In this document: one piece after another, positions 25,306-32,093 of the stretch
Layout of the letters: the number at the start of each line of letters is the position of its first letter
How positions within the stretch are numbered: the stretch's first letter is position 1
Origin: an uncultured Lachnospiraceae bacterium
GTDB lineage: Bacteria > Bacillota > Clostridia > Lachnospirales > Lachnospiraceae
DNA: 64,000 nucleotides
Assembly: GCA_900315735.1 (NCBI GenBank)
Contig: ONAD01000001.1
Coordinates: 124,001-188,000, forward strand
Reading direction: 5' to 3'
Notes under the pieces: generated by a model
Told to the model about the DNA's origin: nothing
Database searches by the model: none
The model's input: the letters and a program-made list of their open reading frames with translations, nothing else
Translations under genes and position numbers: made by a program

Positions 25306-25983
25306 TTAGTCACCAAGCTTATAGCCCAGCCCACGGATGGTTTTGATATATTCCGGGTGTGCCGGGTCAGCTTCGATTTTTTCCCGAAGCCTTTTGATAT
25401 AGACGGTAAGGGTATTGTCATTTACAAATTCCCCAGCCATATCCCATAGCTCATCCAAAAGCCGGCTTCGTGTAAGGACGATGCCCTGATTGGAAAGGAA
25501 AAGTAGGAGCAGCCGGTATTCCAGGGCGGAAAGAGTCAGTTCCACATTATTCTTATAGACCAGTCCCCGTACAGTATTTGCTTTTAATTCGCGATATTCC
25601 AAAGGCTGGCTGCCACGGTGATAGCGGCGGAGAACACTGTTCATTCTGGAAATCAGTTCTCTCGGCCGGAAGGGCTTGGAAATATAATCGTCCGCACCAA
25701 GGTCAAGTCCTGCGACCACGCTATACTCATCATCCGATGCCGTCAGAAAAATAACCGGAATATCCGCATTTGCCTTGATGGCACTGCACAACGAAAAGCC
25801 GCTTCCATCCGGCAGTGAGACATCAAGCAGCGCTAAATCAAAGTGATACTGCCCGGAATCTAATAAATCCCTGGCACTTTTCTGATTATTCGCAGAAGTA
25901 ACCTGAAAACCCTCCTGATTTAAAAATGTCTGTAAACTGGAAACAATAGTTGTATCATCATCTACAAGAAGTACATGTGCCAT
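25306..25983 (-). CDS. OmpR-family response regulator
   Basis: 225-residue two-component regulator. The receiver domain has the acidic pocket D8-D9-D10, phosphoacceptor D54 (LALLDVSLPDG) and K103 (YISKPF). The C-terminal winged helix (about 128-223) has the RGLGYKL wing. The ATG follows AAGGAG. Only 22 bases separate its start from the end of the 524-bp palindromic element, so its promoter must lie within or overlap that element. It probably regulates the adjacent FtsX-like transporter. Confidence 0.95.
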   Translation of the reverse strand: MAHVLLVDDDTTIVSSLQTFLNQEGFQVTSANNQKSARDLLDSGQYHFDLALLDVSLPDGSGFSLCSAIKANADIPVIFLTASDDEYSVVAGLDLGADDYISKPFRPRELISRMNSVLRRYHRGSQPLEYRELKANTVRGLVYKNNVELTLSALEYRLLLLFLSNQGIVLTRSRLLDELWDMAGEFVNDNTLTVYIKRLREKIEADPAHPEYIKTIRGLGYKLGD

Positions 25984-26005
25984 GTTTTCTTCTCCTTACA
26001 ATTAA

Positions 26006-26529
26006 TTTATAGAAGGTGCGGATTGACAAAATACTTGCATAAAATAATCTGGGTTATCCAGAGGATATTTGTTTATGGGATGAAAAATGCCAGTTGTTCT
26101 TAGCTGCATGTTTTGCTTGATGATAAACTGTCTTTCCGCTTGCTTTGACCGGATATCTGCACTGTCCGCCGGGTGCGGATGCGGTATAAGACCTGCAAGG
26201 GGCACTAGGAATTTCGGCAGGCAAAACATTTTGTCCGGCAACCAGTGCAAATTCACATCCATGTTCATATGCACCTCGCTGGCACGTCCATGTGCCAGCG
26301 TTGCCTGTTGCCGGACGAAATTCCAAGTGCCCCTAACAGCTCTTCTTAGGCATCCGCACTTCGACGGACTGTACAGATAGACTGTCAAACATTGGAAAGA
26401 CGGTTTTTACAGACAAAAGCAAAATATGCAGCTTAGAACTATGGTATTTTATATCCAAAACAAATATCCTTTGGATAACAGGATTATTTTAACAAGGATT
26501 ATATAGTGTCAATCCGCCACGTTTATAAA
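26006..26529. repeat. 524-bp near-complete palindromic element with branched tip
   Basis: This stretch fills most of the 646-base gap between divergent genes. Its left arm (26006-about 26245) matches the reverse complement of its right arm (about 26300-26529) along almost the whole length, with scattered mismatches and small indels. Good paired blocks: GCGGATTGACA (26018-26028) with 26507-26517; AAAATAATC (26041-26049) with GATTATTTT near 26482-26490; GGATATTTGTTT with the block near 26460; CTGTCTTTCC with GGAAAGACGG near 26394; GTGCGGATGC (26173-26182) with GCATCCGCAC (26350-26359); GGGGCACTAGGAATTTCG with the block at 26316-26333. The tip holds two further hairpins (GTGCA...TGCAC, 26245-26274; GCTGGCAC...GTGCCAGC, 26278-26299). 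ORFs inside it are mirror artefacts. Confidence 0.85.
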
Positions 26530-26629
26530 AGTCATTGTAGCATAAAGAAACTTGCATTTGCAAAAGAAACAGTATAAGATGGACAGTTGTGATGAAAAAT
26601 AAGCTGGTAAAGGCAAGAGGGATAGACAG

Positions 26630-28357
26630 ATGAAGCAGAATTTAAAGAAAATGATTTCTTATTATAAACCATATCTTGGCGTATTTTTTATCGATATGTT
26701 CTTTGCACTGTTAGCAGCGGTGGCAGCACTGGTGATTCCGCTGATTGTGCGCTATATCACCTCCACTGTGGTATATCTGCCGGAGCAGGATGCAGTAAAG
26801 ACAATCGGAAAGCTGGCGTTGTTTATGGTGGTGCTGGTAGCCGTTCAGTGTTACAGCAATTATTATATTTCCAATAATGGACATGTAATGGGCGCAAAAA
26901 TAGAATATGATATGCGGGCGGAAATATTTGCACATTATCAGAAACTGTCCTTTGCGTTCTATGATAATCAGAAGGTCGGACAGTTGATGGCGAGAATTAC
27001 CACAGACCTTTTTGATATCAGTGAACTGCTGCACCATGGACCGGAAAATATTGTGATTTCCCTGATTAAGATAATTGGTGCCTTTGTCATTATGATGGGA
27101 ATCAGTCCGAAACTTACGGTGGCAGCATTTGCACTGGTTCCGTTTATGATTGCTTATGCATATTTCTTTAATAAAAGGATGAAAAAAGCATTCCGGCAGA
27201 ATCGTATTAAAATAGCAGATATCAACAGTCAGATAGAAGACAACCTTTCCGGCATCCGCGTGGTAAAATCCTTTGCCAATGAAGAAGTCGAACAGGAAAA
27301 ATTCAGCCGTGGAAATAAAGGCTTCTTAGATGCCAAGAAGAACAGTTATCTCTTTATGGGCGGCTATCAGGCGGGACTGACTGCATTTACCACGCTGATT
27401 ACCGTAGTGGTGGTAATTGCCGGAGCACTATGGATTCCGGGTGGAAGTGTGAGCATTACGGATCTGATTACATTCCTTTTATACATCAACGTATTTACCG
27501 AGCCGGTCAAGACGCTGATTGATTTTACAGAGCAGTTCCAAAATGGTTATTCCGGCTTTGAACGGTTTATGGAGATTCTTTCCATTGAACCGGATATTTC
27601 CGATGAGGAAAATGCCATTGCCATGGAAAATGTGCGCGGAGAAGTGGAATTTCAGGATGTTTCTTTCCGTTATGAAGAACATTTGAGCCGCGTTTTAAGG
27701 CATATAAATCTGAAAGTTCCGGCAGGAAGCTATGTGGCACTGGTGGGAACCTCAGGTGCCGGAAAGACAACCCTTTGCAGCCTGATACCAAGATTTTATG
27801 ATGTGTCAGAGGGCAGAATTTTAATCGATGGCTGTGATATCCGCCATTATAAATTAAAAAGTTTGAGAGACCACATTGGCATTGTCCAGCAGGATGTCTA
27901 TTTGTTTGCCGGAACCATTTTTGAAAATATAGCTTATGGCAAGCCGGATGCAACAAGGGAAGAAGTCATTGAGGCAGCAAAGAATGCCAATGCCCATGAA
28001 TTTATCTTATCATTGCCGGATGGTTATGATACAGACATCGGACAGCGGGGCGTAAAACTTTCCGGCGGTCAGAAACAGCGGCTCTCCATTGCCCGGGTAT
28101 TTTTAAAGAATCCGCCGATTCTTATCTTTGATGAAGCAACCTCTGCGCTGGATAACGAAAGTGAAAAGGTGGTACAGGAATCACTAGAGAAGCTGGCGAA
28201 GAACCGGACAACTTTTGTAATTGCCCACAGGCTTTCTACGATAGAAAATGCAGGGCGTATTCTGGTGCTGACTGAGCAGGGAATCGAAGAAGAGGGCACC
28301 CATGAGGAGCTGTTAGCGCAGAATGGAATTTATGCAGGACTTTATCATACCCACTGA
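26630..28357 (+). CDS. ABC exporter, fused membrane and ATPase domains
   Basis: 575-residue type IV (multidrug/lipid-flippase class) half-transporter that should work as a homodimer or heterodimer. Six transmembrane helices occupy about residues 1-310, followed by a nucleotide-binding domain with Walker A (GTSGAGKTT), signature (KLSGGQKQRLSIARV), Walker B (ILIFDEATSALD) and H-loop (IAHRLST). All ATPase motifs are intact. Substrate cannot be inferred. It is preceded by the palindromic element and followed by a spacer with a new promoter, so it is probably monocistronic. The ATG follows AGAGGGATAGACAG. Confidence 0.93.
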   Translation: MKQNLKKMISYYKPYLGVFFIDMFFALLAAVAALVIPLIVRYITSTVVYLPEQDAVKTIGKLALFMVVLVAVQCYSNYYISNNGHVMGAKIEYDMRAEIFAHYQKLSFAFYDNQKVGQLMARITTDLFDISELLHHGPENIVISLIKIIGAFVIMMGISPKLTVAAFALVPFMIAYAYFFNKRMKKAFRQNRIKIADINSQIEDNLSGIRVVKSFANEEVEQEKFSRGNKGFLDAKKNSYLFMGGYQAGLTAFTTLITVVVVIAGALWIPGGSVSITDLITFLLYINVFTEPVKTLIDFTEQFQNGYSGFERFMEILSIEPDISDEENAIAMENVRGEVEFQDVSFRYEEHLSRVLRHINLKVPAGSYVALVGTSGAGKTTLCSLIPRFYDVSEGRILIDGCDIRHYKLKSLRDHIGIVQQDVYLFAGTIFENIAYGKPDATREEVIEAAKNANAHEFILSLPDGYDTDIGQRGVKLSGGQKQRLSIARVFLKNPPILIFDEATSALDNESEKVVQESLEKLAKNRTTFVIAHRLSTIENAGRILVLTEQGIEEEGTHEELLAQNGIYAGLYHTH

Positions 28358-28435: not shown

Positions 28436-28500
28436 GCAATAGGTAGACAAATCAATTCAGTGTGAAATGCACTTTAATTATTAGAAAGAAGGATGTTAAA

Positions 28501-29679
28501 ATGACAAAAATTGATATTATTTCAGGTTTCTTAGGAGCTGGAAAGACCACATTTATCAAGAAAATGATAGAAGAGGCTTTTGTTGGTGAGAAGCTGGTAC
28601 TGATTGAAAATGAATTTGGTGAAGTCGGTATCGATGGTGGATTCTTAAAGGATTCCGGTATTGAAATTACAGAGATGAACTCAGGATGTATCTGCTGTTC
28701 TCTGGTAGGAGATTTTGGAAAGAACTTAAATGAAGTAATTACCAAATTCCATCCGGACCGTATTTTAATCGAGCCGTCAGGAGTTGGTAAACTTTCTGAT
28801 GTAATGAAATCTGTTATTGATGTAGAAAAAGAGCAGGATGTGAAATTAAATGCACTGGTTACAGTTGTAAATGCAAAGAAAGCATCCAAACAGATGAAAG
28901 CCTTTGGTGAATTCTTCAATAACCAGATTGAATTTGCTACAACAATTGTATTAAGCAGAACCCAGAACACAACACCGGAGCAGTTAGAGCTTTGCGTAAA
29001 ACAGATGCAGGAATTAAATGGCAAGGCTGCAATCATTACAACTCCTTGGGATGCTATCAAGGGTGAGCAGATTCTTAAAGTTATGGAAGGACAGGACTCT
29101 CTTGAGATGAAGCTTCTTGCAGAGGCACATCATAAAGCGGAAGAGGAAGAACATGAACATGAACACCATCATGACCATGACCACGAAGAGCATGAGCACC
29201 ATCACGATCATGACCATGAGGAGCATGAGCATCATCACGACCATGAGGAGGACGAGCACCATCATGACCATGACCATGAGGAGCATGAGCACCATCACGA
29301 CCATGACCATGAGGAGCATGAACATCATCATGAGCATGGCGAGAACTGTACCTGCGGATGCCATGACCATGACCACGAACATCATCATCACCATCATGCC
29401 GATGAGGTATTTACAAGCTGGGGCAAAGAGACTCCGCATAAATTTACCCGTGAGAAGATTGAAGAGGTATTAAAGACCTTATCCGAGAGCGAAGAGTATG
29501 GCATGATTCTTCGTGCAAAAGGAATGGTAGAGGATGTCAATGGTTCCTGGATTTACTTTGATATGGTTCCGGGCGAGTATGAATTAAGAGATGGAGAACC
29601 GGATTACACCGGAAGACTCTGTGTCATTGGTTCTAAGATTGACGAACACAAGATTGAAGAATTATTCGGCATTGCATAA
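28501..29679 (+). CDS. COG0523/CobW-type GTPase with a long His-rich metal-binding insert
   Basis: 392-residue G3E-family GTPase, a putative metallochaperone. The P-loop GFLGAGKT lies at about residues 9-16, the metal-site motif C63-I-C-C66 is intact, and a C-terminal CobW domain follows. Between the GTPase and C-terminal domains, about residues 214-300 form a low-complexity His/Asp/Glu repeat (units like HDHDHEEHEHH), interrupted by a CTCGC cluster, suited to buffering zinc, nickel or cobalt. The ATG at 28501 is used because AAGGA lies upstream and the P-loop starts properly from it. It forms an operon with the next GTPase-like gene, 27 bases on. The metal is unknown. Confidence 0.9.
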   Translation: MTKIDIISGFLGAGKTTFIKKMIEEAFVGEKLVLIENEFGEVGIDGGFLKDSGIEITEMNSGCICCSLVGDFGKNLNEVITKFHPDRILIEPSGVGKLSDVMKSVIDVEKEQDVKLNALVTVVNAKKASKQMKAFGEFFNNQIEFATTIVLSRTQNTTPEQLELCVKQMQELNGKAAIITTPWDAIKGEQILKVMEGQDSLEMKLLAEAHHKAEEEEHEHEHHHDHDHEEHEHHHDHDHEEHEHHHDHEEDEHHHDHDHEEHEHHHDHDHEEHEHHHEHGENCTCGCHDHDHEHHHHHHADEVFTSWGKETPHKFTREKIEEVLKTLSESEEYGMILRAKGMVEDVNGSWIYFDMVPGEYELRDGEPDYTGRLCVIGSKIDEHKIEELFGIA

Positions 29680-29706: not shown

Positions 29707-30654
29707 ATGCAGGAGATTCCAGTATATTTATTTACCGGATTTATGGACAGTGGTAAGACCACATTAATCAAAGAAACACTCTTTGAAAATGATTTCGGCG
29801 GGGACAACCGTACGGTAATTATTGTCTGTGAAGACGGCGATGAAGAATATGATGAAGCAAAATTAAATACCATTAATGCGAAGATTGCAATGATTGAAGA
29901 ACAGGAAGATTTTACAACAGAGACGTTGCAGAAGATTCAGGAGACATACAAACCGGAGCAGATTTTTATTGAGTATAACGGTACCTGGGATATTGCTACG
30001 TTGCTTGAGACAAAGATGCCGGATGGCTGGGTAATTGTACAGTCTTTAGCAACCGTAGACGCAACTACATTCGAAATGTATCTTGCCAATATGCGTGCCA
30101 TGATTATGGAGCAGTTGTTTAAGGCAGATGTAGTAATCTTTAACCGTTGTGATGACAATACACCAAAGGGCAAGTTCCGCCGTGCCGTAAAAGCACAGAA
30201 CCGTCCGGCACAGATTGTATATGAGCGTGCCGATGGAACAATTGATGAGAGTGCGGATGAAGAACTGCCATTTGACATCAATGCAGATGTGATTGATATT
30301 ACTGATGCAGATTATGCAATCTGGTATATGGATGCACAGGATAATCCGAAGAAATACGATGGCAAGAAAATCAAATTCCTTGCATTGGTATATAATCCGG
30401 AGAAAATGAGCAAGAAGGGCATGTTCGTGCCGGGACGTTTTGCCATGACCTGCTGTGTAGAGGATGTCCAGTTCTTAGGCTTCAAATGCAAATATCCGAA
30501 GTCAGAAGAAATCGGGCACAAGTCCTGGATAAATATTACCGCAGAAGTTCATGTGGAATTTGCCAAGGAATACAGAGGAAAAGGACCTGTCCTTTATCCG
30601 GTATCTATCGAGCCGGCAGAGAAGCCAGAAGATGAACTGGTATATTTCTCATAA
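29707..30654 (+). CDS. Divergent COG0523-like GTPase with a C-terminal DUF1980/TIGR03943-like region
   Basis: 315-residue protein. The N-terminal half is CobW-like but divergent: the P-loop reads GFMDSGKTT (about residues 10-18) and the usual CxCC metal motif is missing, replaced by an acidic CEDGDEEYDE stretch. The C-terminal third (about 215-310; GKKIKFLALVYNP, GRFAMTCCVEDVQFLGF) resembles the TIGR03943/DUF1980 family, often found beside metal-uptake GTPases. The fusion suggests a role in metal trafficking with the His-rich upstream partner. The ATG follows GGAAAGGGGAAACC. Assignment of the C-terminal region is by eye only. Confidence 0.75.
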   Translation: MQEIPVYLFTGFMDSGKTTLIKETLFENDFGGDNRTVIIVCEDGDEEYDEAKLNTINAKIAMIEEQEDFTTETLQKIQETYKPEQIFIEYNGTWDIATLLETKMPDGWVIVQSLATVDATTFEMYLANMRAMIMEQLFKADVVIFNRCDDNTPKGKFRRAVKAQNRPAQIVYERADGTIDESADEELPFDINADVIDITDADYAIWYMDAQDNPKKYDGKKIKFLALVYNPEKMSKKGMFVPGRFAMTCCVEDVQFLGFKCKYPKSEEIGHKSWINITAEVHVEFAKEYRGKGPVLYPVSIEPAEKPEDELVYFS

Positions 30655-30696: not shown

Positions 30697-30964
30697 AATA
30701 AGAGAAACCGTTGAGAAAGAGTAGTAAGCTTGATTGGAAATCAAAGAGAGCTGCAGGTGGTGGAATTGCAGTATGGAAGATTTTGCTGAATGGACTTTCG
30801 AGGGTGGCCTGAATTAACAGTAGGCGTCACCGGGAACCGAACCCGTTATCAATCCGGCATGTATGATTCGTACATGAATGAGTGGACAATTCGTCAATAT
30901 GAGTGGTACCGCGATAATAAGATTTTATTACCGTCTCAAGCATAAGCTTGAGGCGGTTTTTTTA
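30697..30964 (+). promoter_or_regulatory. Tryptophan-type T-box leader
   Basis: A tRNA-sensing leader. The T-box core GAGTGGTACCGCG (30901-30913) is followed by a terminator (30931-30964). In stem I, AGTA near 30722 and GAA before the specifier form the expected loop E-like bulge, and the sequence GAA-TGG-A near 30791-30797 makes UGG (Trp) the likely specifier codon. Uncharged tRNA-Trp should stabilise the antiterminator and switch on the downstream transporter genes. The variable base after UGG in the T-box is U, which would wobble-pair with a G73 discriminator, a point worth checking. Confidence 0.88.
30931..30964 (+). terminator. T-box-controlled intrinsic terminator
   Basis: CCGTCTCAAG (30931-30940) pairs with CTTGAGGCGG (30947-30956, one G-T pair) and is followed by eight Ts. 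It competes with the antiterminator formed by the T-box core. Confidence 0.9.
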
Positions 30965-31037
30965 CTGTTGGAAAACAGTAAAAGCGCTTTCTCTTATGAA
31001 CAACTATAAATCATATAAGAAAGAAGAGGTAGTAATT

Positions 31038-32093
31038 ATGAAGAAGAAAATGATGGCAGCAGTATTAACAATGGCAATGGCAGTAGCAGCAATGGCAGGA
31101 TGTGGAAGCAAAAGTGCATCCAATGACGCAGCAACAACAGAGAAGGCTGCAGCAGATGGTAAAGTTTATAAAGTGGGTATCGTACAGTATGTAGATGATG
31201 CTTCTTTAAATCAGATTGAGAAAGCAGTAGAAGCAGAGCTGGATGCAAAAGCAAAAGAGCTTGGTGTTACTTTTGATTACAAAGATTATACTTACAATGG
31301 TCAGGCAGATTCCTCTACCTTAAACCAGATTGCAACAGACCTGGTTGCAGAAGATGTAGATGTGATTATTCCAATCGCAACACCAACTGCAATGATTATG
31401 CAGGCAGCAACAGAAGAAAATCAGATTCCGGTTGTATTCTCCGCAGTCAGTGATCCGGTTACCGCAGGACTTGTTGACAGCATGGATAAACCTGGTTCCA
31501 ATATTACCGGAACATCCGATGCATTAAATACAGAAGCAGTAATGGACTTAATGTTTGCAGCAAATAAAGACATCAAAAAAGTAGGTCTTTTATATAATAA
31601 GAGTCAGGATTCTTCCACTGTTCCAATTCAGGATGCAAAAGATTATCTTGATAAAAAAGGCGTTGAATATGTAGAAAAAACAGGAACAACCAATGATGAA
31701 ATTTCTCTTGCAGCAGATGCATTAGTAGCAGCCGGTGTAGATGCAGTATTTACACCAACCGATAACACTGTAATGACAGCAGAACTTGCAATTTATGAGA
31801 AATTTGCAGAAGCAGGCATTCCACATTATGCAGGAGCTGACTCCTTCGCATTAAACGGAGCGTTCTGTGGATTCGGTGTAAACTATGTTGACCTTGGTAC
31901 TGCAACAGCAGATATGGTAGTAGACATCTTAGTAAATGGCAAAGACCCTGCAACAACAGCAGTACAGACTATGAGCAACGGAATTGCAACTGTAAATACA
32001 GATGTAGCAAGCCAGCTTGGAATTGACTACAGCGTATTTGACGGTATGTGTGAAAAAGTAGTAGAGATTCAGACCGCAGAAGAGTTTGAATAA
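31038..32093 (+). CDS. trpX: Tryptophan ABC transporter, substrate-binding lipoprotein (TrpX-like)
   Basis: 351-residue periplasmic-binding-type lipoprotein of the COG2984 family. A signal peptide with lipobox AMAGC places the acylated Cys at about residue 21. It has the two-lobed fold with motifs such as VIIPIATPTAMIMQ and TGTSDALN. The ATG at 31038 is used because AGAGGTAG precedes it and the signal peptide begins there; an upstream ATG would start inside the terminator region. The UGG T-box ahead of it and the COG4120/COG1101-type partners behind it support tryptophan as ligand, as in other Firmicute trpXYZ operons. Ligand specificity is inferred from regulation. Confidence 0.85.
   Translation: MKKKMMAAVLTMAMAVAAMAGCGSKSASNDAATTEKAAADGKVYKVGIVQYVDDASLNQIEKAVEAELDAKAKELGVTFDYKDYTYNGQADSSTLNQIATDLVAEDVDVIIPIATPTAMIMQAATEENQIPVVFSAVSDPVTAGLVDSMDKPGSNITGTSDALNTEAVMDLMFAANKDIKKVGLLYNKSQDSSTVPIQDAKDYLDKKGVEYVEKTGTTNDEISLAADALVAAGVDAVFTPTDNTVMTAELAIYEKFAEAGIPHYAGADSFALNGAFCGFGVNYVDLGTATADMVVDILVNGKDPATTAVQTMSNGIATVNTDVASQLGIDYSVFDGMCEKVVEIQTAEEFE

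Follow-up and report, generated by a model that had tools for sequence, protein, structure and literature searches.

The long palindrome that lies between a response-regulator gene and a divergent ABC exporter gene in an uncultured Lachnospiraceae bacterium carries at its tip a TwoAYGGAY RNA (Rfam RF01731), and it is one of dozens of such elements dispersed through the same genome. These elements flip orientation between strains. Taken together, the evidence makes it probable, though well short of certain, that the element is a mobile, invertible carrier of a predicted CsrA-binding RNA, the arms of which are kept mainly by events at the DNA level. The long-palindrome setting, the presence of up to 59 copies per genome, the transposon-like ends, and the in-place inversion are undescribed in the TwoAYGGAY literature that we searched.

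A TwoAYGGAY RNA at the tip of a long palindrome

In the window, by which we mean the whole 64,000-nt stretch of DNA that was analyzed, most of the gap between the response-regulator gene (25306-25983, minus strand) and the ABC exporter gene (26630-28357, plus strand) is occupied by an imperfect palindrome that is far beyond chance (Table 1). Its arms match at 188 of 248 columns of a symmetric DNA alignment, and the plus strand of 26006-26529 has a predicted RNA minimum free energy of −263.2 kcal/mol, compared with −134.9 ± 5.5 for shuffled sequences (z = −23.4). A preliminary description had placed a palindrome of about 524 bp at 26006-26529, between these two divergent genes, with two separate hairpins at its tip and no gene inside. 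All of this was borne out, except that the arms run slightly farther, to 25981 and 26554, and that the match to an RNA family lies on the minus strand; the ORFs overlapping the palindrome are mechanical, and none of them is gene-like.

The same description recognized no known class in the element and held that a match to a known RNA family would refute its view. For the tip it was mistaken, as the RF01731 match spans the full model (1-168). The terminal loops of the window copy are AUGGAC and AUGGAU, so that both AYGGAY loops of the family are present. The second position of loop 1 differs among copies (often AGGGAU), with GGA retained: in this genome GGA occurs in loop 1 of 58/58 full-length copies and in loop 2 of 98% (mean column identity 0.81), and among congener copies it is found in both loops without exception (100%). 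TwoAYGGAY was reported in 2010 (Weinberg 2010, PMC2864571) and is a known but uncharacterized family. The literature treats it as a free-standing RNA motif whose outer stem is poorly conserved (PMC2864571; PMC4333381); the window copy is like it in being a full-length member with both loops but differs in forming the tip of a long palindrome, as other copies here do.

Table 1. Features of the palindromic element in the window
Feature	Position	Strand	Basis
Whole imperfect palindrome (element copy)	25981..26554	.	Symmetric DNA alignment; MFE z −23.4
Left arm	25981..26215	.	Symmetric DNA alignment
Right arm	26317..26554	.	Symmetric DNA alignment
TwoAYGGAY RNA core (RF01731), full-length model	26184..26348	-	cmscan, 79.6 bits (gathering 43)
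Tip hairpin 1, hexaloop AUGGAC (loop 26286-26291), 9-bp stem; candidate CsrA site	26277..26300	-	Sequence; GGA in 58/58 full-length copies
Tip hairpin 2, ACAUGGAUGU (loop 26257-26262); candidate CsrA site	26245..26274	-	Sequence; GGA in 98% of copies
Promoter-like site TTGACA-18-AATAAT, through core towards response regulator	26483..26512	-	Consensus match 11/12; not evidence of function
Segment inverted in place in other strain (MT835561.1)	26036..26496	.	Reverse 97.2%; forward flanks 95.6% and 91.1%

The preliminary description had also supposed that the palindrome must contain or overlap the promoters of its neighbors. For the response regulator the remark is fair, because the palindrome reaches its start codon, and one strong sigma-70-like match lies inside. 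Since transcription from this predicted site would pass through the core into the gene, the core may lie in the leader of the response-regulator gene in the window genome; in the other strain described below, the core faces the exporter instead. Among the own-genome copies as a whole the promoter signal is weak, with sense promoter-like sites matching at least 10/12 positions in 9/59 copies against 3.3 expected, and no general promoter or terminator was found in the arms.

Farther along the plus strand, a CobW-like GTPase ORF (28462-29679) with a long histidine-rich repeat (HEHHHDHDHEE...) precedes another GTPase-like ORF (29707-30654), and from their sequences the two are probably concerned with metal handling. 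A T-box leader (RF00230, 101.9 bits) occupies 30702-30941 (plus strand), 5' of an ORF (30948-32093) for an ABC-type substrate-binding lipoprotein; the transporter to which this lipoprotein belongs is therefore probably amino-acid regulated.

Dispersed copies and their ends

Other copies, which the preliminary description had proposed to look for, are abundant. The genome (2.8 Mb in 50 contigs) holds 59 RF01731 matches above the cut-off, nearly all of them in palindromes that extend past the Rfam model, with long arms in 24/59 copies (most 175-340 nt) and shorter ones in most of the others (about 40-140 nt). Palindromy exceeded the 95th percentile of random loci in 23/30 copies tested from other genera. 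When ORFs are called by a simple greedy method, each of the 59 copies falls essentially between genes (32 tandem, 23 divergent, and 4 convergent). Where the neighboring genes are in tandem, the core is co-directional with them in 32/47 cases when the own genome and its congeners are pooled (P = 0.019, with orthologous copies counted twice) and in 21/32 in the own genome alone (P = 0.11). Copy numbers per genome within the genus are 59, 19, 14, 3, 3, 1, 0, and 0, some of these genomes being incomplete.

Many of the own-genome copies are bounded by the inverted-repeat ends CAGGYGATTGYRAA and TTYRCAATCRCCTG, transposon-like termini of the form CAGGYGATTG.../...CAATCRCCTG. A search of the genome with the terminal-repeat pattern gave 48 matches, compared with 5 for a reversed control, and the 12 exact matches all lie beside RF01731 copies. 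The terminal repeats are about 510-530 bp apart in long copies and about 320-370 bp apart in short ones; those of the window copy have diverged, and some copies are missing recognizable ends. In the related genome G148, where the element ends are CAGGRAAATCMATTTTG, 9-bp target duplications are present at three copies (two exact, one 8/9). Target duplications, another check that the preliminary description had proposed, were thus found there but were not detectable at the own-genome copies, which have diverged (median core identity 72%).

No parent transposase with matching ends was found in the own genome or in G148, nor was an autonomous element sharing the element ends seen in either. Composite or autonomous elements between inverted pairs of copies were also considered in other genomes, but the ORFs there are unrelated and no transposase was seen, and a search for matches on plasmids found none. 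The element is multi-copy, short, non-coding, and inverted-repeat-ended, and it is MITE-like; because no parent transposase was found, it is called only that and is not assigned as a MITE to any IS family. The label had been offered in the preliminary description, and it holds for the dispersal, the terminal repeats, and the target duplications of G148 but covers only the carrier, the tip being a structured RNA.

The empty site of the window locus could not be recovered from congeners because the flanks there are too diverged (only 69-74% identical), and the one other divergent response regulator-ABC locus that was found is without the core. In the comparison of the congeners G295 and G298, about 340 bp is present in one and absent from the other at one locus, one copy is half deleted, and another has lost its tip; deletion between short TAT repeats could be the source of the presence/absence pattern at loci L200/L223.

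Several side observations concern copies in other genomes. In G148, matches to a 17-bp terminal repeat outnumber those of the control by about 150, and the arms have one G-rich and one C-rich side (L090, L091, and L233-L237); we take this excess and the arm composition to represent a large, young expansion of TwoAYGGAY elements. Several other genomes have inverted pairs of TwoAYGGAY copies 0.2-1.1 kb apart, around unrelated ORFs or none (L076-L083). At one locus (L196, G295:C46), an element lies between a T-box-leader-terminator-like sequence and a valyl-tRNA-synthetase-like gene, both judged by sequence.

Bacterial MITEs and palindromic repeats such as ERIC and Correia are short, non-coding, intergenic, dispersed inverted repeats. 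The element described here is alike in all of these features, with the 9-bp target duplications of G148 in addition, but differs in carrying a conserved RNA family and in having arms that vary between copies yet stay self-complementary.

Conservation of the core, inversion, and upkeep of the arms

Between orthologous copies, changes were found at 13 of about 1144 paired sites in the core, 53 of about 1450 in the arms, and 41/1157 unpaired sites (derived totals). The core is therefore some 3 times better conserved than either the arms or the unpaired sites, and the arms change like unpaired sites. In congener cores G-U exceeds A-C (47 versus 22, P = 0.004), and in own-genome cores there is no such excess (83 versus 70). 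The core thus shows signs of constraint as RNA, clear ones only in the congeners. If the element were instead nothing more than a selfish or decaying palindromic repeat, of the same kind as ERIC and other MITEs, its RNA-like tip would be just the inner stretch of its inverted repeat and its link to CsrA a matter of ancestry or of the lifestyle of motile Lachnospiraceae. Dispersal with terminal repeats, copy numbers from 0 to 59 within one genus, deletions and truncated copies, and arms that evolve like unpaired sites all agree with this explanation. We nevertheless regard it as unlikely, though worth taking seriously, since the core is more conserved than the arms, congener cores favor G-U, the GGA loops are near invariant, and the association with CsrA survives counting by genus.

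A second strain, known from gut metagenome scaffolds alone, allowed orientation to be compared. These scaffolds, MT835472 and others, carry the label "UNVERIFIED: Bacteriophage sp." and cover own loci at about 88-99% identity. MT835472.1, MT835561.1, and about 15 more such GenBank scaffolds (L253-L276) come from Mexican faecal samples and have TwoAYGGAY elements among ordinary bacterial genes; they appear to be chromosomal, from a strain of the same species, rather than phage.

Both flanks of 20 own loci are present in the second strain, where the element has the same orientation at 8, is inverted at 9, and is without the core at 3. Thus, among the comparable loci with a core in both strains, 9/17 are inverted in place, the window locus included. 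The breakpoints are roughly symmetric and fall inside the arms at a distance from the core that differs from locus to locus, and no fixed crossover site common to the inverted loci was seen. Assembler error is an unlikely source of these inversions because the perfect inverted repeats are short, reaching at most 13 nt in the window copy and having maxima of 9-24 nt across the rest of the inverted copies. Two inversions were also found among 13 orthologous copies in G295 and G298. At two loci (C36_37848 and C36_75791) the element is 88-90% identical compared with 93-97% for the flanks, and other copies match as well or better, a pattern that suggests conversion between copies.

In the middle arm of the 24 long copies, two-sided Watson-Crick changes were counted in 221 cells, compared with 65 on average and never more than 80 in shuffles that ignore relatedness. 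One-sided changes show no preference for G-U over A-C in the middle arm (48 versus 65), in the outer arm (87 versus 98), or in a separate arm count (133 versus 203); in the small inner stem the figures are 10 versus 2. The compensatory changes that the preliminary description had proposed to look for are thus present far above shuffles but come with no G-U excess, and its view that blocks of pairing are kept as in an RNA fails for the arms, which covary on both sides without that excess and invert in place; a structured RNA, as it had suggested, describes the tip and not the arms. Because of this covariation without G-U preference, and because the elements invert in place between strains, the arms look to be maintained at the DNA level rather than as RNA. 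Two studies describe template switching between imperfect inverted repeats as homogenizing the arms and inverting the spacer (PMC8604942, PMC8794818), so arm covariation without G-U bias would be expected from it. The elements resemble the quasipalindromes of those studies in both respects, but here the pattern extends to genome scale, with 9/17 loci differing in orientation between two strains, and template switching is a candidate for the mechanism.

RNA-level selection on the whole stem was considered and rejected on the arms' lack of a G-U excess. An end-to-end selected RNA, in which the full 500-nt hairpin is functional and the arms are under compensatory selection, would accommodate the two-sided changes and the very stable fold, but it is highly improbable given that same lack, arms whose rate of change between orthologous copies matches that of unpaired sites, and the great variation in arm length. 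We give similarly little credence to an inverton, whose invertase would flip the element and so toggle a promoter in the arm: in-place inversion is indeed frequent and some copies have inward promoter-like sites, but such sites are not general and the symmetric breakpoints lie at locus-specific distances within the arms rather than at a single fixed site.

The link to CsrA and what the element may do

Binding of CsrA by TwoAYGGAY RNA was proposed in 2014, before the present analysis, as a hypothesis for validation (PMC4333381). The majority loop sequences, ACAGGGAUGU and ACAUGGAUGU, fit the last ten bases (ACARGGAUGU) of the literature consensus CsrA site, RUACARGGAUGU, fully or bar one base, and the core looks suited to binding CsrA, with the two GGA loops as candidate sites. 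The own genome has one csrA, directly after fliW and among flagellar genes, and the stretch VYRKEVY of its product holds an arginine that we take to be the counterpart of E. coli R44.

Co-occurrence across genomes gives new support to the 2014 proposal. Among 294 genomes of the order, TwoAYGGAY is present in 34 and CsrA in 182, with both in 34/34 (expected 21, P = 2e-8); among 396 genomes of the family the numbers are 65 and 208, with both in 64/65 (expected 34, P = 2e-19), the overlap having been taken by eye from two lists and the two samples sharing genomes. Counted by genus, which controls relatedness only in part and leaves motility as a confounder, the association gives P = 1e-4 in the order sample and 1e-14 in the family sample, the genus overlap of 49 assuming that no other TwoAYGGAY genome sampled shares a genus with G470. 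Of all the TwoAYGGAY genomes, G470 alone has no CsrA match; it is a single-contig assembly and carries one copy.

Paired GGA-loop hairpins and a host that encodes CsrA are among the features of RNAs of the CsrB/RsmZ type, and the element has both. It is like CsrB/CsrC and RsmX/Y/Z, the CsrA-sequestering sRNAs of Gammaproteobacteria, in these hairpins and in offering multiple sites per cell. Those RNAs, however, carry many sites on one molecule, whereas each element here has two and the copies are dispersed by the dozen; no general promoter or terminator was found in their arms, and the hosts use FliW.

If the element is a mobile, invertible carrier of a CsrA-binding RNA, as we favor, the core strand would be transcribed by read-through from a neighbor or from a promoter in an arm, and the two GGA hairpins would bind the two RNA-binding faces of one CsrA dimer. 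The copies would then jointly titrate CsrA and mark neighboring leaders as CsrA-bound. The arms would be kept palindromic mainly by replication template switching or recombination between them, and these homogenizing events would also flip the element and hence the strand with the CsrA sites. Against this reading stand the lack of detectable target duplications in the own genome, the failure to find a transposase, the own-genome cores with no G-U excess, G470, arms in which promoters and terminators are not general, a second strain represented solely by unverified metagenome scaffolds, and the fact that CsrA tracks motility and ancestry. A bolder version, which we offer tentatively and think doubtful, is a mobile phase-variable post-transcriptional module that scatters paired CsrA sites and in which flipping picks the neighboring transcript that carries them. 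If so, the leaders bound by CsrA would differ from strain to strain, in bacteria that have the FliW protein as their known CsrA antagonist.

Since 2010 TwoAYGGAY has remained an orphan RNA, and its co-occurrence with CsrA strengthens the 2014 proposal and makes it directly testable. Flipping dispersed palindromes also offer a natural setting for template switching, with dozens of loci in a single genome, and are a possible source of strain-to-strain regulatory variation. If the CsrA proposal is true, RNA antagonists of CsrA would extend beyond Gammaproteobacteria into FliW-bearing gut Firmicutes.
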